A stretch of 64,000 nt of DNA from Parvularcula marina (GTDB lineage: Bacteria; Pseudomonadota; Alphaproteobacteria; Caulobacterales; Parvularculaceae): positions 186,001-250,000 of the forward strand of contig NZ_QUQO01000002.1 in NCBI RefSeq assembly GCF_003399445.1, in the 5' to 3' direction. Under the pieces are notes generated by a model. It searched no databases. It saw only the letters and a list, made by a program, of their open reading frames with translations, and was not told the DNA's origin. Shown one piece after another: positions 45,695 to 57,753 of the stretch. Both the position numbers and the translations under genes were made by a program. Numbering within the stretch: the first letter of the stretch is position 1; each line of letters opens with the position of its first letter.

Positions 45695-47236
45695 ATGCAA
45701 ATTGTCGATGTCCGCGCCCATCCGTCAAAGGACCAGCTGCCGCGTGAAGACCAGCTCGCCTGGAAAATGGCTGAAGTCGCTGCCGATTCGGTAGAGGTGG
45801 ATGCCGAGACGACGGACATGATCATCAACCGGATCATCGACAATGCTTCCGTTGCCATCGCTTCCCTCAATCGCGGCCCGATCAAGACAGCGCGAGCGCA
45901 GGCGAAAGCCCATCACCGTCATGGCGGCGCAACCCTTTTCGGGATGCCGGCCGATTTCGGCGTGGCGGCCGAATGGGCCGCATGGGCGAACGGCACGGCC
46001 GTGCGCGAGCTTGATTTCCACGATACTTTTCTGGCTGCGGATTATTCCCACCCGGGCGATAACATCCCGCCCGTTCTCGCGGTCGCCCAGCAGATGGGCA
46101 AGAATGGCCGCGACGTCATTCGCGGTATCGCGACCGGTTATGAGATCCAGGTGAATCTCGTGAAAGCGATCTGCCTTCATGAGCACAAGATCGACCACAT
46201 CGCCCATATCGGCCCGTCGGCGTCCGCCGCCATCGGCACGCTGCTCGGCCTCGACCGCGAAGTCATCTATCAGTCGATCCAGCAAGGCCTTCACTGCACG
46301 GTCACGACCCGTCAGTCCCGTAAAGGGGAAATCAGTACATGGAAGGCTTTTGCGCCCGCCTATGCCGGTAAGACAGCCATTGAGGCCGTTGACCGCTGCA
46401 TGCGGGGCGAGGGCGCGCCGTCGCCGATTTATGAAGGCGAGGATTCAGTCCTTTCCTTTATCCTCAATGGCCGGACTGCCCGCGATCAGGGCAAGTCGCC
46501 TTATGAGCCGACCTATCACGTGCCGCTGCCCGCACCGGGTGAGGCCAAGCGTGCGATCCTTGAGACCTACACCAAAGAGCACTCCGCGGAGTATCAGTCA
46601 CAGGCGCTGATCGACCTTGCCTTCCGCATGGGCCGCGACATCGAGGCCAAAGGCGGATTTGATGCGGTCAAGTCGATCGTTCTGCACACGTCTCACCATA
46701 CGCATTACGTCATCGGGACGGGCGCTGGCGATCCACAGAAAATGGATCCCAAAGCCTCTCGCGAAACGCTCGATCACTCGATCATGTATATTTTCGCGGT
46801 CGCCCTGCAGGATGGCGAATGGCACCATGTCCGCTCCTATGCACCCGAGCGCGCCCAGCGTGAGGACACGGTCCGCCTGTGGCACAAAATTTCGACGACC
46901 GAAGATCCCGAATGGACGCGTCGCTATCACTCGCATGACCCGAACGAAAAAGCCTTCGGCGCACGCGTTGTTGTCACAATGGAAGACGGTACCGTCATCG
47001 AGGATGAGCTTGGTATCGCCAATGCGCACCCCTTCGGCGCGCGGCCATTTGGGCGGGACGAGTATATCGGTAAGTTCCTGACCCTGACGGACGGCATACT
47101 TGCCAAGGAGGAAAGCGATCGCTTCCTCGATCTCGTCCAGCGTCTGCCGGAGCTCGAGCATCTGGATCTTCTGACCCTCAACCCGGTCGCCCCGGACGGC
47201 TATCTCGAAGAGAACGGCCTGAAAGGGATTTTCTAA
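45695..47236 (+). CDS. prpD: 2-Methylcitrate dehydratase (MmgE/PrpD family)
   Basis: Dehydrates 2-methylcitrate to 2-methylaconitate in the methylcitrate cycle for propionyl-CoA. Family features: [42 protein letters not shown], the active-site region near [17 protein letters not shown], and [20 protein letters not shown]. The length of 513 residues is normal. The assignment to PrpD rather than another MmgE-like enzyme rests on being first in an operon with prpB and prpC. Ribosome-binding site AAAAGGGA precedes ATG 45695. Confidence 0.92.
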
Positions 47237-47238
47237 AT

Positions 47239-47355
47239 ATGGGCGTTGTCCTGATCGTCGTGGTCCTTGTTGTGGCCGCGAAGATCGGGATCGGCCTTTT
47301 CATCTATTCCCGCATGAAGGCGAAAAGAATGAAGGGCAGCACGCGCGACAAATGA
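47239..47355 (+). CDS. 38-residue membrane peptide inside the prp operon
   Basis: ATG 47239 begins 2 bases after the prpD stop and encodes a 38-residue peptide ending at TGA 47353-47355. It has one hydrophobic helix (GVVLIVVVLVVAAKIGIGLFIY) and a basic tail (SRMKAKRMKGSTRDK). The clean membrane-plus-basic layout and tight spacing between prpD and prpB suggest a real small protein. It is too short for most gene callers. A possible ribosome-binding site AAAGGGA lies about 10 bases upstream, inside prpD. Function is unknown. Confidence 0.6.
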   Translation: MGVVLIVVVLVVAAKIGIGLFIYSRMKAKRMKGSTRDK

Positions 47356-47390
47356 ACGCCGATCCGGATGCAGGTTAAAGGATAAGAAGT

Positions 47391-48302
47391 ATGCTCTTTA
47401 CAAAGAAAACTCACGCAGAAAAACGCCAGGCCTTTCGCGATCTTCTCGATGACGGCAAACTGCATCAGTTCCCCGGGGCGTTCTCGCCTTTCGTAGCGCA
47501 GATGATCGAGCGCAAGGGCTATCCCGGCGTCTATATTGGCGGCGCGATGCTGACGGCGGATCTCTGCCTGCCCGACATCGGCATTGCGACCCTGTCGGAA
47601 TTTGCAGATCGCGGTGAGCAGATCGCGCGCGCAACCGACCTGCCAGCCTTTATCGATATCGATACAGGTTTCGGGGAGCCGATGAGTGCTGCCCGGGCCG
47701 TCCGTATGCTGGAGGAAAAGGGTCTGGCCGGTTGTCATATCGAAGATCAGGTCATGCCCAAGCGATGCGGGCATCTCGACGGTAAAGAAACCGTCGAAAC
47801 CGAAATCATGATCCAGCGGGTGCGTGCAGCGGCCGATGCAAAGCGTGACCCGAACTTTACGGTCATTGCCCGCTCTGATGCTCGCGCTATCGAAGGGCTC
47901 GATAAGGCAATCGACCGCATGAAAGCCTATGTCGATGCAGGGGCGGACATGATCTTCCCCGAAGCGATGAAGGATGAGAAGGAATTCGAGGCGGTACGTG
48001 CTGCGCTTGACGTGCCGATCCTCGCCAATATGACCGAATTCGGTAAAAGTCGTCTACTGACGAAACAGGAACTTACCGATCTCGGCTTCAACGTCGTCAT
48101 CTATCCGGTGACGACTTTCCGTCTGGCCATGGGAGAGGTCGAGCGCGGGCTCGATCATATTCTCGAGCATGGTGACCAGAATGGCATCTTGGACAAGATG
48201 CAGCACCGCAAGACGCTTTATGATTATCTGCGGTATGAAGACTATTCAAAGTTCGACCAGTCGATCTTCAATTTCGACGTGGGGGATACACCCACCAAAT
48301 AA
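47391..48302 (+). CDS. prpB: 2-Methylisocitrate lyase
   Basis: Cleaves 2-methylisocitrate into pyruvate and succinate. The isocitrate-lyase family signature is MPKRCGHLDGK with catalytic Cys, and magnesium ligands are in FIDIDTGFGEP and IEDQVMPK. Length 303 residues, close to E. coli PrpB. ATG 47391 is preceded by AAAGGATAAGAAG. It lies 35 bases after the small membrane peptide and 30 bases before the thiolase gene. Confidence 0.94.
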   Translation: MLFTKKTHAEKRQAFRDLLDDGKLHQFPGAFSPFVAQMIERKGYPGVYIGGAMLTADLCLPDIGIATLSEFADRGEQIARATDLPAFIDIDTGFGEPMSAARAVRMLEEKGLAGCHIEDQVMPKRCGHLDGKETVETEIMIQRVRAAADAKRDPNFTVIARSDARAIEGLDKAIDRMKAYVDAGADMIFPEAMKDEKEFEAVRAALDVPILANMTEFGKSRLLTKQELTDLGFNVVIYPVTTFRLAMGEVERGLDHILEHGDQNGILDKMQHRKTLYDYLRYEDYSKFDQSIFNFDVGDTPTK

Positions 48303-48332
48303 ATCCAGGGCAACCCTTGAAAGGAACTGAAT

Positions 48333-49535
48333 ATGGCTGAAAAAGCTATCAAAGACGTTGTTGTCCTGAGCGCGGTTCGCACCGCTGTCGGGCGTTTCGG
48401 TGGCTCCCTGAAGGATGTGCCGCTAGAAGAGCTTGGTGGCCTCTGCGTGCGTGAGGCGATCAGCCGAGCAGGAGTGCCGGCAGAAGGCATTGAGACGGCT
48501 GTTGTCGGCAATGTCCTCCGCACACAGTCGAAAGATGCCTATATCTCTCGCATGTGTGCGATTGAAGGCGGCATGTCGCATGACTCAACCGCTGTGACAG
48601 TGAACCGACTCTGCGGTTCCGGTCTCGAAGCCATCGTGCAGGCCAGCCAGCAGATTCAGCTCGGCGATGCCGAACTTGCCGTTGCTGGCGGCGTTGAATC
48701 GATGAGCCGCACAACCTATTCCGCCGCCGCGCCGCGCTTCGGTCAGAAGATGGGCCCGGTGACGATGGAAGACGACATGTTGGCAGCGCTGCATGATCCA
48801 TTCGGTGCGGGCCATATGGGTATGACGGCGGAGAATGTCGCGGAGCAGTTCTCGATCAGCCGCGAGACCCAGGACGAATTTGCCGAGGAAAGCCATCGCC
48901 GCGCGATCAATGCGATTGAGCAGGGCTATTTCAAAGAACAGATCGTTCCCGTCGAGCTGAAAAGCCGTAAGGGCACGACCCTTTTCGACACCGATGAACA
49001 TCCGCGTGCGGATGTCAGCATGGAAGGCCTCTCCGGCCTGCGCCCTGCCTTCAAGAAAGATGGCGGCACGGTGACGGCGGGTAACGCATCCGGTCTCAAT
49101 GACGGGGCGGCCATGCTGGTGCTCGCCTCGGCAGAGAAAGCCGAAGAGCTTGGTGTCAAACCGATGGCGCGTCTTGTCGGCTATGCGCGGGCAGGGGTTG
49201 ATCCCAGCATTATGGGCACAGGGCCGATCCCGGCTGTCCGGCGTGTGCTGGAACGGACGGGGCTTTCTGTTGCGGATCTCGATGTCATCGAATCAAACGA
49301 AGCCTTTGCAGCGCAGGCTTGTGCTGTCTCGAAGGAACTTGATCTGCCAGCGGAGAAAGTGAACCCCAATGGCGGCGCGGTTGCGCTGGGCCACCCTGTC
49401 GGGGCGACCGGTGCCATCGTCACCACCAAATGCCTTTATGAGTTGAAGCGCACCGGCGGGCGTTATGGCCTCGTCACGCTCTGCATCGGTGGCGGGCAGG
49501 GTATTGCGGCCATTTTTGAAAATCTGGACGCTTGA
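48333..49535 (+). CDS. Acetyl-CoA C-acetyltransferase (thiolase)
   Basis: Thiolase that condenses or cleaves acyl-CoA. The nucleophile Cys is in VNRLCGSGLEAIV (about residue 90), and the C-terminal catalytic His and Cys are in NGGAVALGHPVGATGA and CIGGGQG. Length 400 residues. Its place between prpB and prpC suggests a role in breaking down odd-chain or branched intermediates to propionyl-CoA, or in using acetoacetyl-type intermediates; the thiolase itself does not belong to the core methylcitrate cycle. Confidence 0.92.
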   Translation: MAEKAIKDVVVLSAVRTAVGRFGGSLKDVPLEELGGLCVREAISRAGVPAEGIETAVVGNVLRTQSKDAYISRMCAIEGGMSHDSTAVTVNRLCGSGLEAIVQASQQIQLGDAELAVAGGVESMSRTTYSAAAPRFGQKMGPVTMEDDMLAALHDPFGAGHMGMTAENVAEQFSISRETQDEFAEESHRRAINAIEQGYFKEQIVPVELKSRKGTTLFDTDEHPRADVSMEGLSGLRPAFKKDGGTVTAGNASGLNDGAAMLVLASAEKAEELGVKPMARLVGYARAGVDPSIMGTGPIPAVRRVLERTGLSVADLDVIESNEAFAAQACAVSKELDLPAEKVNPNGGAVALGHPVGATGAIVTTKCLYELKRTGGRYGLVTLCIGGGQGIAAIFENLDA

Positions 49536-49563
49536 TGATGACAACAGAACACGGAGGGAAGTG

Positions 49564-50697
49564 ATGAGCGAAGACGTCAAATATGGACTGGCCGGGGTAC
49601 TGGCGGATGATACCGCCGTCTCCAAGGTGATGCCCGAGACGAACTCCCTGACCTATCGCGGCTATGCGGTGCAGGATCTGGCAAAACATTGCCGGTTCGA
49701 GGAAGTCGCCTATCTCATCTGGAATGGGGAGCTTCCCAAAGCGGATGAGCTGGCGGCACTGAATGCCCGGGAAAAGTCCGAGCGTGGTCTTTCGGATGAT
49801 GCGCTGGCGGTCATGCGGCTTCTCAATACCGAAGCGCATCCCATGGATACGCTCCGCACGGTGGTCAGCTTCCTTGGTCAGGAAGATATGTCGACGGCAG
49901 ATTCTTCGCCTGAAGGGCTGATGGAAAAGGCCATCCGCCTTTACGCCCAGATCCCGCAGATCGTTGCGACCGACTATCGCCTGCGGAATGGCAAGGAGCC
50001 GATTGCGCCGACGGATGATCTCGGTTTCACCGAGAACTTCTTCCATATGTGCTTTGGTGAAGTGCCCGCACCGGAAGTCATCAAATGTTTCGACATCTCG
50101 ATGACGCTTTATGCGGAGCATTCCTTTAATGCCTCGACCTTCACGGCTCGGACGATTGCATCGTCGCTGTCCGATATCTACTCGGCGGTGACCGGCGCCA
50201 TCGGCTCTCTCAAGGGACCGCTGCATGGCGGGGCCAATGAGGCGGTCATGCATATGCTGAAGGAAGTCGGCTCGGCGGATGCTGCGCGCGACTGGATGCT
50301 GGATGCGCTGGCGACCAAGAAAAAAATCATGGGCTTTGGCCATCGCGTCTATCGCTCCGGTGACAGCCGCGTGCCGACCATGACCGATGCCTATGAGAAA
50401 ATGGTCGATGTCATCGACACGCCCGAGGCGCGGGAATACTGGAAGATGTCGAGCATTCTCGATGAGACCATGGTGTCTGAGAAAGGGATCTATCCTAATC
50501 TCGATTTCCCGGCTGGCCCTGCCTATTACCTGATGGGCTTTGACATTCCGATGTTCACGCCGATTTTCGTCATGTCACGGATTACCGGCTGGACGGCGCA
50601 TGTCATGGAACAGCTTGCTAATAACAAGCTGATCCGTCCGTTGTCGCATTATAATGGTGTGCCGCAGCGAGACGTCACACCGCTTGAGGATCGCTGA
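49564..50697 (+). CDS. prpC: 2-Methylcitrate synthase
   Basis: Condenses propionyl-CoA with oxaloacetate to give 2-methylcitrate. Citrate synthase fold with catalytic His motifs GPLHGGANEAVM and GFGHRVYRSGD and the C-terminal Asp/Arg region. The length of 377 residues is that of the short type II-like PrpC rather than a main citrate synthase. ATG 49564 has GGAGG six bases upstream; the frame is open to 49465. It is the last gene of the operon and ends at a terminator. Confidence 0.92.
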   Translation: MSEDVKYGLAGVLADDTAVSKVMPETNSLTYRGYAVQDLAKHCRFEEVAYLIWNGELPKADELAALNAREKSERGLSDDALAVMRLLNTEAHPMDTLRTVVSFLGQEDMSTADSSPEGLMEKAIRLYAQIPQIVATDYRLRNGKEPIAPTDDLGFTENFFHMCFGEVPAPEVIKCFDISMTLYAEHSFNASTFTARTIASSLSDIYSAVTGAIGSLKGPLHGGANEAVMHMLKEVGSADAARDWMLDALATKKKIMGFGHRVYRSGDSRVPTMTDAYEKMVDVIDTPEAREYWKMSSILDETMVSEKGIYPNLDFPAGPAYYLMGFDIPMFTPIFVMSRITGWTAHVMEQLANNKLIRPLSHYNGVPQRDVTPLEDR

Positions 50698-50702
50698 TCT
50701 GG

Positions 50703-50730
50703 AATGGCCGGTTTATCCGGCCATTTCTTT
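50703..50730 (+). terminator. Terminator of the prp operon
   Basis: Stem AATGGCCGG / CCGGCCATT with a TTTAT loop followed by TCTTTT. Its right arm runs into the last codons and stop of the convergent reductase gene. Confidence 0.88.
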
Positions 50731-51939
50731 TAGCTCGACATTTATATTGCGGAGCTGATCATGTGCCGGGCTTGCCCCTTGCATGATCAGCAGACGTCCT
50801 TGCGCATAATCCGCTGGACGGTTGACGCAATCAAGAGCAATGACCCGGCCTTTCTTCAGATAGACAACGGAGAAACTGCGGTCTTTGGGGTGGCCCCGGA
50901 CGACCATATCGTCATGCCCGAGTGACAGGCCGATAGTCTGAAGATGCAGGTCATACTGGTCGGACCAGAACCAGGGGATCGCTTCATAGCTGGCGGGTTT
51001 GCCAAGGATTGTCTTGGCAACGACCCGGGCTTGATCATTCGCGTTCTGAACGGATTCAAGCCGAACCCATGCGCCATCCGCGAATTTGTTCTGATGCAGG
51101 GCGCAATCCCCGATCGCGAAAACATCCGGCAGGGAAGTGCGGCAATGCGCATCGACGCGGACACCATTGCCGCCCGTGGCGCCAACTTCCAAGAGGGGCG
51201 CAACCACCGGATCAATCCCGATACCGACGATCACCATGTCGCAAGGCAGGGTCTCGCCGCTCTCCAACGTCACGCCCGTGACCTTCTGGCCGGTGATCTT
51301 AAATGAGCTGAGCTTCGCATTGAGACGCATATCAACGCCCTGAGCTGTGTGCTCTGCCTCATAGTAACGCGAGAGCGGTTCACCAGCGACGCGGGCCATG
51401 ACCCGCTCCATCGCCTCGATGACGGCCACTTCCTTGCCGAATTTCCGCATCACGGCGGCCGCCTCAAGACCGATATAGCCGCCGCCGATGACCGCGACGC
51501 GGTTGGTCTGGGGCAGGCTGGCCATCAGCGGATCAACGTCCGACCGGTACCTGATGACATGCATGTTTTGCGGATCATGACCGGGGACTTCGAGACGTCT
51601 CGGCGTGCCGCCCGTGGCCCAGATAAGCTGTCCGTAGCCATATGACTTGCCATCTGCGGTCGTCACGCGATGCGCGCCGGGATCAACCGCCGTGACCTCG
51701 TGATCGAGAAGAAGCGTGATGTCCTGCTCTGCCCAGAAGCTTTCGGGCCGGATCAAGATGCGGTCGAAATCCTTCTCTCCCGCAAGGTAGTCCTTGGACA
51801 GCGGAGGGCGCTCATAGGGTGCGAACGATTCCGCGCTGATAAGGCCGATGCTGCCCGTAAACTTGCCCTGGCGGAGGGTGATGGCGGCTTGCGCGCCGGC
51901 ATGACCGCCGCCGACGATCAGGATGTCAAAGTCACTCAT
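50713..51939 (-). CDS. FAD-dependent ferredoxin/rubredoxin reductase-like protein
   Basis: NADH-dependent flavoprotein of the putidaredoxin-reductase type that feeds electrons to a ferredoxin. FAD motifs LIVGGGHAGAQAA (residues 6-18) and the second FAD segment FAIGDCA (about residue 274) flank the NAD motif VIGGGYIGLEAAA. Length 408 residues. Such reductases usually serve a ferredoxin-dependent oxygenase or P450; none is adjacent here. It is on the same strand, 49 bases after the gluconate symporter gene, and may share its transcript. Confidence 0.87.
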   Translation of the reverse strand: MSDFDILIVGGGHAGAQAAITLRQGKFTGSIGLISAESFAPYERPPLSKDYLAGEKDFDRILIRPESFWAEQDITLLLDHEVTAVDPGAHRVTTADGKSYGYGQLIWATGGTPRRLEVPGHDPQNMHVIRYRSDVDPLMASLPQTNRVAVIGGGYIGLEAAAVMRKFGKEVAVIEAMERVMARVAGEPLSRYYEAEHTAQGVDMRLNAKLSSFKITGQKVTGVTLESGETLPCDMVIVGIGIDPVVAPLLEVGATGGNGVRVDAHCRTSLPDVFAIGDCALHQNKFADGAWVRLESVQNANDQARVVAKTILGKPASYEAIPWFWSDQYDLHLQTIGLSLGHDDMVVRGHPKDRSFSVVYLKKGRVIALDCVNRPADYAQGRLLIMQGASPAHDQLRNINVELKEMAG

Positions 51940-51988: not shown

Positions 51989-53350
51989 TCAGAAGACGAG
52001 CGAGAGAAGGCACGCCATGCCGAAGCCGACCAGCCCGATGATCGTCGTCATCACCGTCCAGCTTTTGAGTGTCTGCGCCTCGCTCAGCCCCAGATAACGG
52101 CTGACCAGCCAGAAGCCTGAATCATTGACATGCGAGGTCATGCTGGCGCCCGAGGCGATCGCGATGACGAGGAGGCCGAGCGTGGGGCCTGTCACGCCTG
52201 CCAGCTCTGCAACCGGCGCGCAGAGGCCAGCGCCGGTGATCATCGCGACAGTGGCGGAGCCTTGCGAGACACGGACGATAAAGGCGGCAAGGAAACCGAA
52301 GAGCAGAAGCGGCATGTCATTGGCGAGCAATGTCTCGGCGAGGAGGGTACCGGTGCCGGAATCGACAAGGATCTGTTTGAAGGCGCCGCCAGCCCCGGTG
52401 ACGAGAACGACGAGCCCTGCAGGCTCCAGCGCGCGGGCGCAGGCTTCGCGCAAATTCTCTGCGGGTAGGCCATGGCGCAAGCCGAGCAGCCACCAGGCAA
52501 GAAGGCACGCAATCAGAAGCGCCGTGAACGGATGGCCGACAAATCCGATAGTGCTCATGGCTTGTGGCGGGATCCAGTCAGGGGAGACAGCTTTCGTGAC
52601 GGTCGCGATCAGGATGAGGGTGACCGGCGCAATGATGATGAACATCGCCTCGCTGAACCCGGCCGGATTCGACGGGCGGGCAATCTCATCGGCGGGGGTT
52701 AGGTCGGGTGGGGTAATATTCTGTAGGCTGCGCAGTTTTACGAGCTGGCTTGCCAGCATGGGGCCTGCGATGAAAGCGGCGGGGAGCCCGGTGATGATCC
52801 CGAACAGGATGATCCAGCCAAGATCGGCGGAGAGGATTTCCGCAACCGCAATGGGGCCGGGCGTGGGCGGCACAAAGGAATGGGTGACGACCATCCCGGC
52901 GGTGAGCGGAATGGCAAAGGCAATGATCGACTTTCCAGTGCGCTCGCTGAGACCCAGTAAAAGCGGCAGGAGAATGATCAGCGCGACATCGAAAAAGACA
53001 GGGATGGAGACGAGAAAACCGATCAGGGTAAGGGCCGTGGGCGCGCGGTCCGGCCCGAACTTTTTCAGCAGCGAGTTAGAGATGGCTTCGACGCCGCCTG
53101 AGGCTTCGAGGAGGGCGCCCATCATCGCGCCAAGGCCTACGACGACGGCGACAAAGCCGAGCGTGCCGCCCATCCCGTTGCGGACGGCTTCGATGACAGC
53201 GGACGGATCCATGCCAACCGTCAGGCCAAAGACGATACTGATCAGGATCAGCGACAGGAAAGCCGGCAGCCGGACTTTCAGGACCAGAAAGAGTAGCGCG
53301 AGGATGGCCCCCGCCGTCGCAAATAGCGGAAGGAGGGGCATGTCGCTCAC
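51989..53350 (-). CDS. gntP: Gluconate:H+ symporter (GntP family)
   Basis: Inner-membrane uptake of gluconate or a related sugar acid. 453 residues with about 12 to 14 hydrophobic segments and the family features GMGGTLGFVAVVVGLGAMMG and FVPPTPGPIAVAEILSADLG. Its ATG overlaps the stop of the GH3/SMP-30 fusion by four bases, so it is translated in step with that enzyme. The neighbouring lactonase domain produces sugar acids, which supports an aldonate substrate; the exact one is not known. Confidence 0.9.
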   Translation of the reverse strand: MSDMPLLPLFATAGAILALLFLVLKVRLPAFLSLILISIVFGLTVGMDPSAVIEAVRNGMGGTLGFVAVVVGLGAMMGALLEASGGVEAISNSLLKKFGPDRAPTALTLIGFLVSIPVFFDVALIILLPLLLGLSERTGKSIIAFAIPLTAGMVVTHSFVPPTPGPIAVAEILSADLGWIILFGIITGLPAAFIAGPMLASQLVKLRSLQNITPPDLTPADEIARPSNPAGFSEAMFIIIAPVTLILIATVTKAVSPDWIPPQAMSTIGFVGHPFTALLIACLLAWWLLGLRHGLPAENLREACARALEPAGLVVLVTGAGGAFKQILVDSGTGTLLAETLLANDMPLLLFGFLAAFIVRVSQGSATVAMITGAGLCAPVAELAGVTGPTLGLLVIAIASGASMTSHVNDSGFWLVSRYLGLSEAQTLKSWTVMTTIIGLVGFGMACLLSLVF

Positions 53351-56300
53351 TCCTTCCCGTCGAGATGAACGCGGGCGAGGAAGGCGCCTGAGGTGATGAA
53401 GAGAGTGCGGCCCCCTTCGGCGAGCGTCACATTCGCGGCCAGCGTGCCGGTGCGGATGAGGGCCAGAAGATCACCTTCAGGACTGAGGAGATGGATGCCG
53501 CCGGGCCCGGCAAGATAGACATTGCCGACCGCATCAATCGCCATCCCGTCCGGCAATCCCTGCTCGCCGCGTTCGATGAAGGGCATGGCATCATGGAAGA
53601 CACGGCGGTTCGTCGCCGACCCATCACCCTGGACGTCATAAGCATAAAGCTTGGCGGCGTCCGGGTCGGAGACAGCGACGTAAAGCGTCTTGCCGTCCGG
53701 GGAGAGGCCGACCCCGTTCGGCTTGGTCAGCTCATCATCGATAAGAGTGACGCTACCATCCGGGGCCAGACGATAGACACCGTTCCACGGCATTTCCTTG
53801 GCGGGGGAGTCCTCGATCCCGGCCAGCCCATAAGGCGGGTCGGTGAAATAAAGCGCCCCGTCGCTCGCGCGGACGAGGTCATTGGGGCTGGAGAATTTCT
53901 TGCCGTCATATTCGGTGGCAAGGAATGTCTTCTCCATCGTGTTGAGGTCGAGCCGGGCCACCGCGCGGTTGCCGTGATCGCCCATCAGAATGGCATCGGG
54001 GCCGTCAGCGATCAGGCCATTGGCGCCGGGTTCACGGAAGATGTCTGTCGGCGGCCCCGCATAGCCGGAGGGTTCGAGAGCAGTGCGGAGACCACCTTCT
54101 TCGCTCCAGCCATACATCGTGTTACCCGGAACGTCCGTGAAGAGAACTTCCCGGCGCTCCTCCATCCAGACCGGACCCTCTGACCAGCCGAAAAGGTCCG
54201 GGGTCAGGCGTTCGATGGTGGCATTGGGGGCGATCAGGGCATCCGCCCGGCGGCTGAACCGTTCAATCCGTCCGATGGATCGTGGCAGCGTTTCCTCTGA
54301 CGCACCTTCAACACTGACCTTGGTTTCGATGGCGGCGGCAGGGCCATCAGCACTAACGCCTTCCTCGATCATGAAGCTGCCGCTGGTCCTGATATCGGCG
54401 GAAGAACTGCCGATCATGTAATTGATCGCACCCGCATCGACCTGCCATTCGCCGTCCGGTCCCCAATAGGCAAACTGCTCCGGGGTCAGCGTGAAGCTGA
54501 CAGATTTTGTCTCTCCCGGCGCGAGGGTCACCCGCACAAACCCGCGCAGCTCTGCCTGTGGCCGAGCGACGTCAGCGAGCGGGTCGCGGGTATAGAGCTG
54601 GACGACTTCGTCGGCGGCCATGGTGCCGTCATTGGTGACATCGACAGAAAGGGTGAGTGTTTCACCTTCGCCCATGCTGTCCCGATCCATTGCCGCATCG
54701 CCATAAGAGAAAACGACATAGGAAAGACCGTGTCCGAACGGATAAAGCGGCGTGATGTCGATATCCATGTAACGGGCGGTGTCTTTGGTGACATCCGGGT
54801 CAGCGGGACGGCCTGTCGGATGGTGGCCCATATAATAAGGGGACTGACCGGTCCGGCGCGGGAAGGAGGCGGGCAGTTTGCCACCGGGTGAGGCCTTGCC
54901 GAAAACGATATCCGCAACGGCGGGGCCGGTCTCGACGCCCAGCATCCATGTTTCAAGGATGGCGTCTGCTTCTTCGCTCAGCATGCTGATGTCGAGCGGA
55001 CGGCCATTCATCAAGAGCACCGCGACCGGCGTATCCGTTTCCAGAACGACTTCGGCGAGCGCGGCTTGAGGGGCGGGGAGGCCGATATCCGAACGGGAGC
55101 GGGCTTCGCCGGAGAGGTCGTAATCTTCGCCGATGACAAGCAGGACGAGGTCGGCCTTTTTCGCGGCATTCACTGCCCGGCGCAGCTCGGAACGGGCTGG
55201 CATGTCCTTGGTGTCCGCGCCTGCGACATAATCGAGGCGCGCACCTTCGGGGAGCGCTGCCTCAAGACCTTCGAGAATGGTGCTGACATTTTCAGCCTGC
55301 CCCTGCGCCCGCCAGGAGCCGAGCGGGGAGGAGGCGTCATCTGCCAGAGCACCGATGACGGCGATGCGTTTTACGTCCTCTGTGACCGGCAGGGCGCCGT
55401 CATTTTTCAGGAGCACCATGGATTTGCGGGCTGCTTCGCGGGCCAGCACGCGGTGGGCTTCTGAGAGGATGACTTCGGCTTCCCGTTCCGTATCGTGATA
55501 GGCATACGGATCATCGAAGAGCCCCAGCCGGTCCTTGGTGAGCAGGATGCGCGTGACCGACAGGTCTAGCGCCTTCATCAGCTCGGGGTCCGATTTCACC
55601 CTGTCCACCATCTCGCCGACATAGATGCCGCTGGTCATTTCCATATCGACCCCGGCGGCAAGGGCGAGAGCGCCAGCATCAGCCGGTGTTCCCGCGACAC
55701 CGTGGTTCATCAGCTCCATGACGGAATTCCAGTCACTGACCACCATGCCGTCAAAACCCCAGAGGTCGCGGAGGATACCGGTGAGGAGGCGTTTGTTCGC
55801 TGTGGTCGGCACGCCCGCAATATCGTTGAAGGCGACCATATAGGTCGCGGTACCTGCATCGGCGGCGGCCTTGAAGGGCGGCAGGTAGATCTCGCGAAGC
55901 GCGCGCTCGGAGATCTCGGCGGTGTCATAGTCGCGGCCGCCCTGGCCTGCGCCATAGGCACCGAGATGTTTGGCGGTGGCGAGAATTGTGTCGCCTGCGG
56001 AGAGATCATCGCCCTGATAGCCGCGCACCTGTGCGGCGGCCATCACCGCACCGAGATAGGGTTCTTCACCGGCGCCTTCGACGATCCGTCCCCAACGCGC
56101 ATCGCGGGCGATGTCGACCATGGGCGCGAAGGTCCAGTGAAGACCAGCGGCGGAAGCTTCGCTGCCCGCGGCGCGGGCGGTCGCCTCGACAAGCGCAGGA
56201 TCAAAGCTGGAGGCAAGGGCCAGCGGTACGGGGAAGATGGTCTTGTAGCCATGCACCACATCCATCGCGAAGAGGAGGGGGATGCCGGTCCGGCTTTCCT

Positions 56301-56631
56301 CGACCGCGACACGCTGGAGATTTTCGAGCGGCTCTGCGCCCGCGACATGGAGGTATGAGCCGACAAGGCCGGACCGTACCCGGTCGAGTTCGGCATCATT
56401 GAGGCGTGAGTTGAGGTTCTTCGACCGCCCACCCGGCATCTGGTGGAGCTGGCCCAGCTTTTCCTCAACGGTCAGGCGCTCAAGGATATAGGCCCGCCGT
56501 TCGGCACCGGTGAGGCCAGCCTCGGTCGCTTCGCCCGCAAGCGTCTGCGGCGCATCCTGCGCAATTGCGCTGCCGCCCATGGCTGAAATCGCAAGAAGGG
56601 CTGCCCCCCAAATGGCTTTGGTGACCATCAT
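53347..56631 (-). CDS. Exported GH3 beta-glucosidase fused to SMP-30/gluconolactonase domain
   Basis: An unusual two-enzyme protein of 1094 residues. A signal peptide ends near GGSAIAQD. GH3 N-terminal barrel covers about 45-390 with nucleophile Asp300 in MVVSDWNSV and the conserved KHLGAYG and RWGRIVEGAGEEP; the GH3 C-terminal domain and an FnIII-like domain (VQLYTRDPLADVARPQ) run to about 740. A six-bladed SMP-30/gluconolactonase domain then follows from about 800, at bases 53350 to about 54240. Its four metal ligands are intact: Glu818 (GWSEGPVW), Asn917 (SSPNDL), Asn972 (KPNGVG) and Asp1028 (LPDGMA). The protein probably releases glucose from beta-glucosides and opens a sugar lactone in the periplasm, feeding the coupled gluconate symporter. 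Confidence 0.93.
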   Translation of the reverse strand: MMVTKAIWGAALLAISAMGGSAIAQDAPQTLAGEATEAGLTGAERRAYILERLTVEEKLGQLHQMPGGRSKNLNSRLNDAELDRVRSGLVGSYLHVAGAEPLENLQRVAVEESRTGIPLLFAMDVVHGYKTIFPVPLALASSFDPALVEATARAAGSEASAAGLHWTFAPMVDIARDARWGRIVEGAGEEPYLGAVMAAAQVRGYQGDDLSAGDTILATAKHLGAYGAGQGGRDYDTAEISERALREIYLPPFKAAADAGTATYMVAFNDIAGVPTTANKRLLTGILRDLWGFDGMVVSDWNSVMELMNHGVAGTPADAGALALAAGVDMEMTSGIYVGEMVDRVKSDPELMKALDLSVTRILLTKDRLGLFDDPYAYHDTEREAEVILSEAHRVLAREAARKSMVLLKNDGALPVTEDVKRIAVIGALADDASSPLGSWRAQGQAENVSTILEGLEAALPEGARLDYVAGADTKDMPARSELRRAVNAAKKADLVLLVIGEDYDLSGEARSRSDIGLPAPQAALAEVVLETDTPVAVLLMNGRPLDISMLSEEADAILETWMLGVETGPAVADIVFGKASPGGKLPASFPRRTGQSPYYMGHHPTGRPADPDVTKDTARYMDIDITPLYPFGHGLSYVVFSYGDAAMDRDSMGEGETLTLSVDVTNDGTMAADEVVQLYTRDPLADVARPQAELRGFVRVTLAPGETKSVSFTLTPEQFAYWGPDGEWQVDAGAINYMIGSSSADIRTSGSFMIEEGVSADGPAAAIETKVSVEGASEETLPRSIGRIERFSRRADALIAPNATIERLTPDLFGWSEGPVWMEERREVLFTDVPGNTMYGWSEEGGLRTALEPSGYAGPPTDIFREPGANGLIADGPDAILMGDHGNRAVARLDLNTMEKTFLATEYDGKKFSSPNDLVRASDGALYFTDPPYGLAGIEDSPAKEMPWNGVYRLAPDGSVTLIDDELTKPNGVGLSPDGKTLYVAVSDPDAAKLYAYDVQGDGSATNRRVFHDAMPFIERGEQGLPDGMAIDAVGNVYLAGPGGIHLLSPEGDLLALIRTGTLAANVTLAEGGRTLFITSGAFLARVHLDGKE

Positions 56632-56681
56632 CTACTCTCCCTATGTGCCGCCCGAATCTGTCGTCCGGCTGGTCATTTAGC

Positions 56682-56695
56682 TGTTAGCGCTATCA
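56682..56695. promoter_or_regulatory. LacI-type operator-like palindrome upstream of GH3 fusion
   Basis: TGTTAGCGCTATCA, a near-perfect palindrome (one mismatched pair) with the AGCGCT centre common in LacI-family sugar operators. It lies 51 bases upstream of the fusion gene. The same 13-base core occurs at 45563 upstream of the prp operon. No LacI-family gene is present in the window. Confidence 0.65.
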
Positions 56696-56727: not shown

Positions 56728-57618
56728 TCAGGGCATGGGCCCGCCGCGATAGGCCTCGACGATGTCATACCATTCCCGCCGTGTGAGAGTCGGGAGGGGC
56801 TCCCGGCCCAGCGCGGCGATGCGTTCCGCATTCTGTGTACCGATGATCGGGATGACGGGCCCTGGGCACATGCTGAGGAAGGAGAGGGCGATCGACGCCT
56901 CATCTGTCACTTTCTCCTTGGCAAGGCGCGCAACGGTTTCGCGGACACTCGCATCCGTCGCGGTCCCGTCATGGGAGAAGAGCCGACCGCCGCCGAGCGG
57001 TGACCATGCCATGAAAAGCGCGCCATTCTCTTCGCACCATGAGAGGACACCGTCCTCGATGGGATCCTGACAGAGAACCGAGAATTCATTCTGGACGGAG
57101 ATGATCGGGGCTTTCATGTGGGCGGCCAGAGCCCGAATCTGGTCGGCCCTGAAATTCGAGACACCGATATAGCGGGTCTTGCCCGAGGCAACGAAGCTAT
57201 CAAGCGTTTCGGCAAGCTCCGCCATGGGGGTCAGGAGATCCGGCCGGTGGAGCTGATAAAGGTCCACCTGATCAACTTTCAGCCGCTCTAGTGATCTGTC
57301 GAAGGCAGCCGTCAGATAGTCCCGGCTCGAATCATAGGGCGCGCCGAGCCAGATGCCGCCCTTGGTCGCGAGGACCATGCGCCCGCGCAGACCGCTATCC
57401 GCCTCCAGCACTTCGCCAAGAAGAGCTTCGGCGGAACCGAATCCTTCATCCGTGTCCGCCCCATAAATATCGGCGGTGTCGATCAACGTCATGCCGGCAT
57501 CAAGCGCGGTCACGATCTTCTCGTGCGCCGTATCGACATCGGTTGCGGCAAACCGCCAGCAGCCATAGGCGAGCCGGCCAATATCGGGACCATTCGGGGT
57601 AAGGGGCAGCGTATCCAT
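56728..57618 (-). CDS. Aldo/keto reductase
   Basis: NADPH-dependent carbonyl reductase with a TIM-barrel fold. The catalytic tetrad is visible: Asp and Tyr in LIDTADIYGADTD, Lys in LATKGG and His in YQLHRPD. Length 296 residues from ATG 57618; the frame is open to 57678. It resembles the YdhF-like and sugar-aldehyde reductase group. It lies upstream of the GH3 fusion gene on the same strand, but the operator-like site between them suggests separate control. Substrate is unknown. Confidence 0.87.
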   Translation of the reverse strand: MDTLPLTPNGPDIGRLAYGCWRFAATDVDTAHEKIVTALDAGMTLIDTADIYGADTDEGFGSAEALLGEVLEADSGLRGRMVLATKGGIWLGAPYDSSRDYLTAAFDRSLERLKVDQVDLYQLHRPDLLTPMAELAETLDSFVASGKTRYIGVSNFRADQIRALAAHMKAPIISVQNEFSVLCQDPIEDGVLSWCEENGALFMAWSPLGGGRLFSHDGTATDASVRETVARLAKEKVTDEASIALSFLSMCPGPVIPIIGTQNAERIAALGREPLPTLTRREWYDIVEAYRGGPMP

Positions 57619-57753
57619 GGCGTGCCTTGTGGCAGATGCCGCGAGACCTGAACAAGCAGTTCGGCACATTGCCCTCATGGTCAGAGCAGCCTAGACAGTG
57701 GAGAGATTGATAAGGGCTCCGCCAAGAGCCCGCCACGCGGGAGGATGACTGCC

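Follow-up and report, generated by a model that had tools for sequence, protein, structure and literature searches.

A natural fusion of GH3 and SMP-30/gluconolactonase domains overlapping gntP in Parvularcula marina, and its genomic link to GFOR-type oxidoreductases

In Zymomonas mobilis, an exported glucose-fructose oxidoreductase (GFOR) produces gluconolactone, a lactonase opens the lactone and the gluconate is taken up. Here we analyzed a 64,000-nucleotide stretch of the Parvularcula marina genome (NCBI RefSeq assembly GCF_003399445.1, contig NZ_QUQO01000002.1, positions 186,001 to 250,000; hereafter the window), in which a GH3 beta-glucosidase-like protein is fused to an SMP-30/gluconolactonase (SGL) domain. 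The locus resembles the Z. mobilis route in that the candidate for the GFOR step matches the Z. mobilis GFOR and that a lactonase and gluconate uptake are represented, but differs from it in that the lactonase is fused to GH3 and the fusion gene overlaps gntP. Because in relatives the same parts are encoded by separate genes that neighbour each other, in some cases with the likely oxidising enzyme, the fusion probably represents a compact form of an already known type of glucose-to-gluconate route outside the inner membrane.

Papers are cited below by PMC number, each from an excerpt of its text. In Caulobacter crescentus, CC1224-CC1225 is a putative operon of a gluconolactonase and an aldose-aldose oxidoreductase (AAOR) (PMC4628093). 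SGLs standing beside AAOR relatives at two loci, L052 and L060, are 52-53% identical to the window SGL, and L060 carries the SGL-AAOR pair with an AAOR match of 773 bits; unlike the window, these CC1224-CC1225 type loci showed no GH3 or GntP match in the 20.9 kb around each, and the SGL there has a gene of its own. BglX-type GH3 enzymes of solved structure (5xxl, 3u48 and 6r5i) align with the GH3 half over its entire length, with the nucleophile and the probable acid/base kept, whereas those chains are without an SGL domain and the window protein lies under the BglX NCBIfam cut-off. For the SGL half, the best solved match is the Xanthomonas gluconolactonase 3dr2 (139 bits), in which the motif positions align but which is a stand-alone enzyme of 305 residues. 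We take 3dr2 to be the XC5397 protein assayed in PMC12362111. PMC9795676 lists 3dr2 as a gluconolactonase that binds Ca. In DrSOD of Deinococcus, too, an SGL propeller is naturally fused to a different enzyme; there, unlike here, the partner is a Cu/Zn-SOD, and the SGL acts on 2-coumaranone and, in the excerpted text, not efficiently on gluconolactone (PMC12362111). No description of a GH3-lactonase fusion, of its recurrence or of its tie to GFOR was found in the open-licence literature, which is a weak negative; the parts and the pathway are already known, and the fusion with its GFOR tie is apparently undescribed.

The fusion gene and its conserved residues

The fusion gene lies on the minus strand of the window and comprises the following features:

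53347..56631, minus strand: GH3 beta-glucosidase-like protein fused to an SGL domain, one uninterrupted frame of 1094 residues with an ATG start
56560..56631, minus strand: probable Sec signal peptide, residues 1-24, cleavage after AIA, read by eye
55543..56472, minus strand: GH3 N-terminal domain, residues 54-363 (Pfam 219.6 bits, cut-off 27), with the nucleophile D300 at 55732-55734
54718..55419, minus strand: GH3 C-terminal domain, residues 405-638 (Pfam 163.7 bits, cut-off 31), with the probable acid/base E509
54400..54609, minus strand: Fn3-like domain, residues 675-744 (Pfam 85.1 bits, cut-off 25)
54187..54399, minus strand: linker, residues 745-815, from the GH3 tail to the mature SGL start, with no internal signal-like stretch by eye
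53386..54186, minus strand: SGL domain, residues 816-1082 (Pfam 153.7 bits, cut-off 26.3), containing E818, N917, N972 and D1028

An earlier sequence-only reading of this DNA had given the same frame and length, but its upstream end, position 56695, falls 64 bases upstream of the start codon. Both the N- and C-terminal GH3 domains score above the curated Pfam cut-offs, which assigns the protein to GH3. The BglX equivalog model NF011678 was narrowly missed by the GH3 half (649.8 bits against a cut-off of 666), which is BglX-like when this score is set against the 473.6 bits for the xylosidase/arabinosidase model (NCBIfam), and its nearest solved structures are beta-glucosidases. The SGL domain is full length, with profile positions 1-245 of 246 matched. 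Judged from its Sec-like start, the 1094-residue protein is probably an exported two-enzyme fusion, and we infer both enzyme activities and the substrate from the sequence. An AlphaFold2 model of the fusion reached a mean pLDDT of 79 and a pTM of 0.65; the block means were 85-97 across residues 801-1090, so the SGL part is good, while the GH3 part is patchy and poor near E509, and the packing of the domains therefore carries no claim. A fold search gave only glycosidases among the 50 listed rows, all matching the GH3 part.

D300, E818, N917, N972 and D1028 were found in the translated sequence at the positions that had been claimed for them. D300 aligns to the Asp that is Asn in PDB 5xxn, a Bacteroides mutant whose title names D286N, and both D300 and E509 are invariant in the 11 GH3-bearing rows of alignment A2 and the 10 of A3; the aligned position of E509 makes it the probable acid/base. 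The four SGL residues are likewise invariant, in 11/11 rows of alignment A1, 10/10 SGL-bearing rows of A2 and 27/27 of A3, the three alignments having rows in common. In a computed alignment they fall at the motif Glu, two Asn and Asp of 3dr2, the metal and active-site residues of SGL proteins.

Recurrence of the fusion and its split relatives

The family sample comprised 62 genomes of Parvularculaceae, some of them incomplete. An SGL relative of at least 260 bits was found in 14 of the 62, and the best score of the next genome was 100.5 bits; the set of SGL genomes therefore has a natural edge. Fused GH3-SGL genes without a stop within their frames occur in four of these genomes, namely the window's own, G051, G055 and G001, of which G055 is from the same genus as the window and was counted as one assembly with Parvularcula oceani JLT2013 (L048). 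A fifth fusion, also in a frame without a stop, was found in Hyphomonadaceae UBA5336 (L049). GH3, SGL and GntP are encoded by separate genes in six further family genomes, being adjacent in G010, G011, G057 and G017 (the GntP gene of the last is cut by the contig end) and, in G020 and G043, lying within some 10 kb of one another, with SGL-GntP spacings of 3.6 and 5.2 kb. The SGL is without a close adjoining GH3 relative in G053, G016, G052 and G054; two distant GH3 genes lie near the SGL of G052, and that of G054 adjoins GntP.

These six relatives with separate, neighbouring GH3 and SGL genes would suit the view that the long frame is an assembly artefact, or a frameshift merging two genes, which we regard as vanishingly improbable. 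The sequence-only reading had singled out base 54270 as the place near which other strains might show a stop, and the frames of G051, G055, G001 and L049 run on uninterrupted. Among seven separate SGL starts inspected by eye, six are lipoprotein-like and one is Sec-like, whereas the GH3 tail of each of the five fused proteins passes directly into the mature SGL start, with no signal-like start seen there by eye. Because this start is missing from all five, they are natural fusions, not misjoins; the artefact was rejected since the fusion recurs in other assemblies, and the joining of GH3 to SGL is real.

Trees were built from 45 SGL rows and 18 GH3 rows, leaving out named loci (described below) under 48% SGL identity, matches shorter than 290 residues, and L048, which duplicates L036. 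The fused state needs four changes in the SGL tree and three in the GH3 tree, and the well-supported branches force at least three and at least two, respectively; more than one change of the fused state, through fusion or fission, has therefore taken place, and several independent fusions are one reading of this. A shuffle test did not show clustering of the fused label, 84 of 500 (SGL) and 37 of 500 (GH3) shuffles being as low. In G053 (L037 and L174), from the same genus, a separate SGL with a lipoprotein-like start is placed by the SGL tree amid the fused ones; it has no GH3 or GntP match beside it, pfkB kinase, enolase-superfamily and UxaC-family proteins are encoded nearby, and a GFOR gene lies about 10 kb away.

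In a class-wide sample of 385 genomes, an SGL at E 1e-60 or better was present in 11, the own genome included, and the long frame was seen only in the own genome, with at most five candidates scored per genome. One protein query found no relative on viral contigs. Plasmid records gave 1102 matches; 59 of the 60 best extend over no more than 69% of the protein, and a place covering at least 80% is present in just one of the 1102 records, a Paraburkholderia plasmid on which GH3, SDR and SMP-30 are annotated as separate genes. A fusion of the SGL with a different type of glycosidase was also seen: one uncultured Steroidobacter metagenome-assembled genome (MAG) carries a GH10 (xylanase-family) domain fused to an SGL of the same kind (L059:7528-9447, 640 residues).

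Genomic links to GntP and to a GFOR-like oxidoreductase

The fusion gene is followed by the gene of a transporter:

51989..53350, minus strand: GntP-family aldonate:H+ symporter (above the Pfam cut-off; NCBIfam TIGR00791, 408 versus 292.75 bits)

The coordinates bear out the 4-base overlap of gntP with the fusion gene, and the proposed link of SGL and GH3 to GntP was found in 10 family genomes, fused and split forms together (the operon genomes).

The enzyme that would make the lactone had been expected to lie elsewhere, and indeed the own operon contains no GFOR gene, while a GFOR/AAOR-like gene is present on contig C1, the fusion being on C2. This gene (C1:1183117-1184322, also L171:10063-11331) encodes a protein with a twin-arginine-like start by eye, whose best solved match is Z. 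mobilis GFOR 1h6a (335 bits), followed by the Caulobacter AAOR 5a02, and it adjoins a ROK kinase gene (249 bits to fructokinase ScrK, below the cut-off of 400). In G020 (L041), the gene before GH3 encodes a Gfo/Idh/MocA protein, again with a twin-arginine-like start and with Zymomonas GFOR and then Caulobacter AAOR as the best solved matches, and in G043 (L043) a GFOR-like protein 78-80% identical to it occupies the same place, so that the order is GFOR-GH3-SGL...GntP in both loci. Among the family genomes, GFOR of at least 400 bits occurs in 10 of the 62, all 10 being SGL genomes and the own genome among them (Fisher p 9e-9, a descriptive value because the thresholds were set after the gaps were seen and kinship was uncontrolled).

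The link was also found in 80 named loci, the best 80 of at least 587 confirmed ones, which had been found through the SGL domain and some of whose stretches are cut by contig ends. With thresholds of at least 40% identity for GFOR and at least 50% for GH3, the stretch around the SGL holds GFOR in 17 loci, GntP in 12, GH3 in nine and all three in five, each of the five being from Sphingomonas and arranged GFOR-GH3-GntP-SGL; L082 shows this order with 4-base overlaps at two of the junctions and a gap of 13 bases at the other. The window's aldo/keto reductase and FAD-reductase genes, used as controls, were found in 0/80. Collectively, these results make the exported GFOR-like protein a strong candidate for the missing oxidase. 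A membrane PQQ glucose dehydrogenase, which the sequence-only reading had named as a possible oxidase, was rejected for the own genome, whose sole TIGR03074 match has 24.9 bits over 41 positions; a PQQ-domain dehydrogenase of 705 bits, under the cut-off of 832.65, is present in G001, which carries the fusion and is without GFOR.

Proposed route, alternatives and further neighbours

The most economical reading, which we consider somewhat better than even, is that the GH3 half would hydrolyse a beta-glucoside or a short beta-glucan oligosaccharide in the periplasm to give glucose, that a separate exported GFOR-type oxidoreductase would oxidise this to glucono-1,5-lactone, that the SGL half would open the lactone using a bound metal ion, and that GntP, from the overlapping next gene, would import the aldonate with a proton. 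Known GFOR relatives keep NADP bound. Of this route, export, the activity of both halves, the substrate, the involvement of GFOR in P. marina and the nature of the transported acid are predictions. The one-protein periplasmic route of the sequence-only reading is supported in part, as regards the fusion, the conserved residues, the GntP link and an oxidase encoded elsewhere, but not as regards a membrane PQQ enzyme, and the acid is unsettled; a cellobionolactone-type natural substrate, which it had also considered, is not needed but may apply.

Several observations weigh against this route. No GntP match was found in the 20,927 bases around the fused gene of L049, GFOR of at least 400 bits is missing from two operon genomes, G001 and G057, and any of GFOR, GntP and GH3 lies near the SGL in just 23 of the 80 named loci. 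GSDH-family matches were found in 5/5 genomes tested (two in the own genome, the best of 422 bits) and GMC-family matches in 3/5 (five of them in the own genome), which leaves GFOR as one of several oxidase candidates. The SGL of the DrSOD fusion has an intact Ca site and, in the excerpt, does not hydrolyse gluconolactone efficiently (PMC12362111), and an intact SGL metal site is therefore not proof of a gluconolactonase. In the own genome (99.54% complete, 35 contigs), two family searches recognised no gluconate kinase, the best TIGR01313 match having 23.5 bits, and the two FGGY kinases, judged by eye on sequence and gene context, resemble a xylulokinase and a glycerol kinase; which acid is carried is for this reason unsettled. 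Finally, the G020 cluster (L041) includes a dehydratase, with 5j83 as its best solved relative and L-arabinonate dehydratase 9evv close behind, and an FAA-hydrolase-family protein, both with copies in the G043 cluster (L043; 92% and 80% identical), which suggests a pentonate or another aldonate.

The same architecture might thus serve a pentonate- or galactonate-type acid, GH3 freeing xylose or arabinose, the oxidoreductase forming a pentonolactone, the SGL opening it and GntP importing the pentonate. This is unlikely in our judgement, though the dehydratase and FAA-hydrolase-family genes of L041 and L043 and the unrecognised own gluconate kinase would accord with it, as would the conversion of D-xylose into xylonate and xylitol by the Caulobacter AAOR (PMC4628093). 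The own genome also encodes a dehydratase 58% identical to that of L041, clustered with a DGOK-family kinase, but its best solved match is the dihydroxyacid dehydratase 8ej0, and the cluster, which includes an SGL of its own and a transporter of another kind, is on a contig other than that of the fusion. The BglX-like scores of the GH3 half and its beta-glucosidase structural relatives also speak for glucose, as does the position of gluconate kinase genes, which adjoin GntP in G057 and the SGL in G020 and G043. In the family, gluconate kinase (TIGR01313, at least 100 bits) occurs in 12 of the 62 genomes, of which 10 score above the curated cut-off and 11 are SGL genomes; eight of the 10 operon genomes have it, the own genome and G001 being without, and the match of G055, at 107 bits, is under the cut-off of 113.75. 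In a Sphingomonadaceae MAG, a gene between GntP and GH3-SGL (L123:6898-7518) reads by eye like a gluconate kinase. The own dehydratase cluster (L170, C1:937001-957000) encodes an IlvD/Edd-family dehydratase, which scores 831.7 bits with the model for L-arabinonate dehydratase (cut-off 882), together with SDR-like, KDPG-aldolase-like and symporter-like proteins, the DGOK-family kinase and another SGL without an evident signal, several of these labels being sequence readings; it looks like a second sugar-acid pathway, probably a cytoplasmic one.

Oxidation might instead come before hydrolysis, a cellobiose-type disaccharide being oxidised to its lactone, the SGL opening this to an aldobionic acid and GH3 splitting the acid into glucose and gluconate. 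The literature, as excerpted, leaves room for this order: lactobionic acid has been made from lactose with Z. mobilis GFOR (PMC4565883), maltotriose was seen in a crystal of the Caulobacter AAOR (PMC9795676) and cellobionic acid can be cleaved by a beta-glucosidase (PMC3268779). The sequence, however, offers nothing that favours it over hydrolysis first, and we rate it as quite improbable. We rate as very improbable a structural or binding role for the SGL half, or its action on some lactone that has nothing to do with sugar oxidation, for which the metal-intact DrSOD SGL might serve as a precedent, since the metal residues are invariant in the SGL rows examined, the linkage to GFOR and GntP recurs and the nearest solved relative is a gluconolactonase.

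In the preferred route, from GH3 through GFOR and the fused SGL to GntP, the fusion may in addition protect its own catalytic partner, because gluconolactone inhibits beta-glucosidases, and relief of this inhibition by a lactonase has been proposed for cellulase systems (PMC3268779, in the excerpt). The tethered lactonase would destroy the inhibitor next to the GH3 domain, allowing hydrolysis and oxidation to run together. This idea of a self-protecting beta-glucosidase is tentative, and we would not expect it to hold; by their titles, the structures 5xxm and 4zob are of GH3 relatives crystallised with gluconolactone. If true, the idea would explain why GH3 and SGL, and not GFOR and SGL, merged in several lineages, and if the tethered lactonase relieves inhibition, it would be a natural design for a problem of biomass saccharification, in which lactones inhibit beta-glucosidases (PMC3268779). 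The fusion ties glycoside breakdown and periplasmic sugar oxidation together in one polypeptide, and with the likely oxidase named, the whole route becomes testable.

As to the glycoside, GH16 is present in six of the 10 operon genomes, the own genome having one match of 57.7 bits, which is compatible with laminarin-type substrates. PF10091, presumably the family of some beta-1,2-glucanases, was found in 0/10 operon genomes. Bearing on osmoregulated glucans as the substrate, MdoG and a glycosyltransferase are encoded at least 1.4 kb downstream of gntP in L038, MdoG not having been searched for elsewhere.

Two further genes of the window, possibly co-transcribed, flank the fusion gene and gntP:

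56728..57678, minus strand: aldo/keto reductase (Pfam), 96 bases upstream of the fusion gene
50713..51939, minus strand: FAD ferredoxin-reductase-like gene (Pfam), 49 bases downstream of gntP

The aldo/keto reductase is not a conserved partner, with a tblastn relative in one of 93 loci (L035). The FAD ferredoxin-reductase-like gene also has a relative in only one of the 93 loci, 55% identical and downstream of SGL-GntP in G054 (L047:16267-17490). Further along the window, at 45695-50697, MmgE/PrpD-like, methylisocitrate-lyase-like, thiolase-like and citrate synthase genes stand in a row that resembles a 2-methylcitrate cycle cluster, the citrate synthase being assigned from Pfam and the remaining labels read from sequence.

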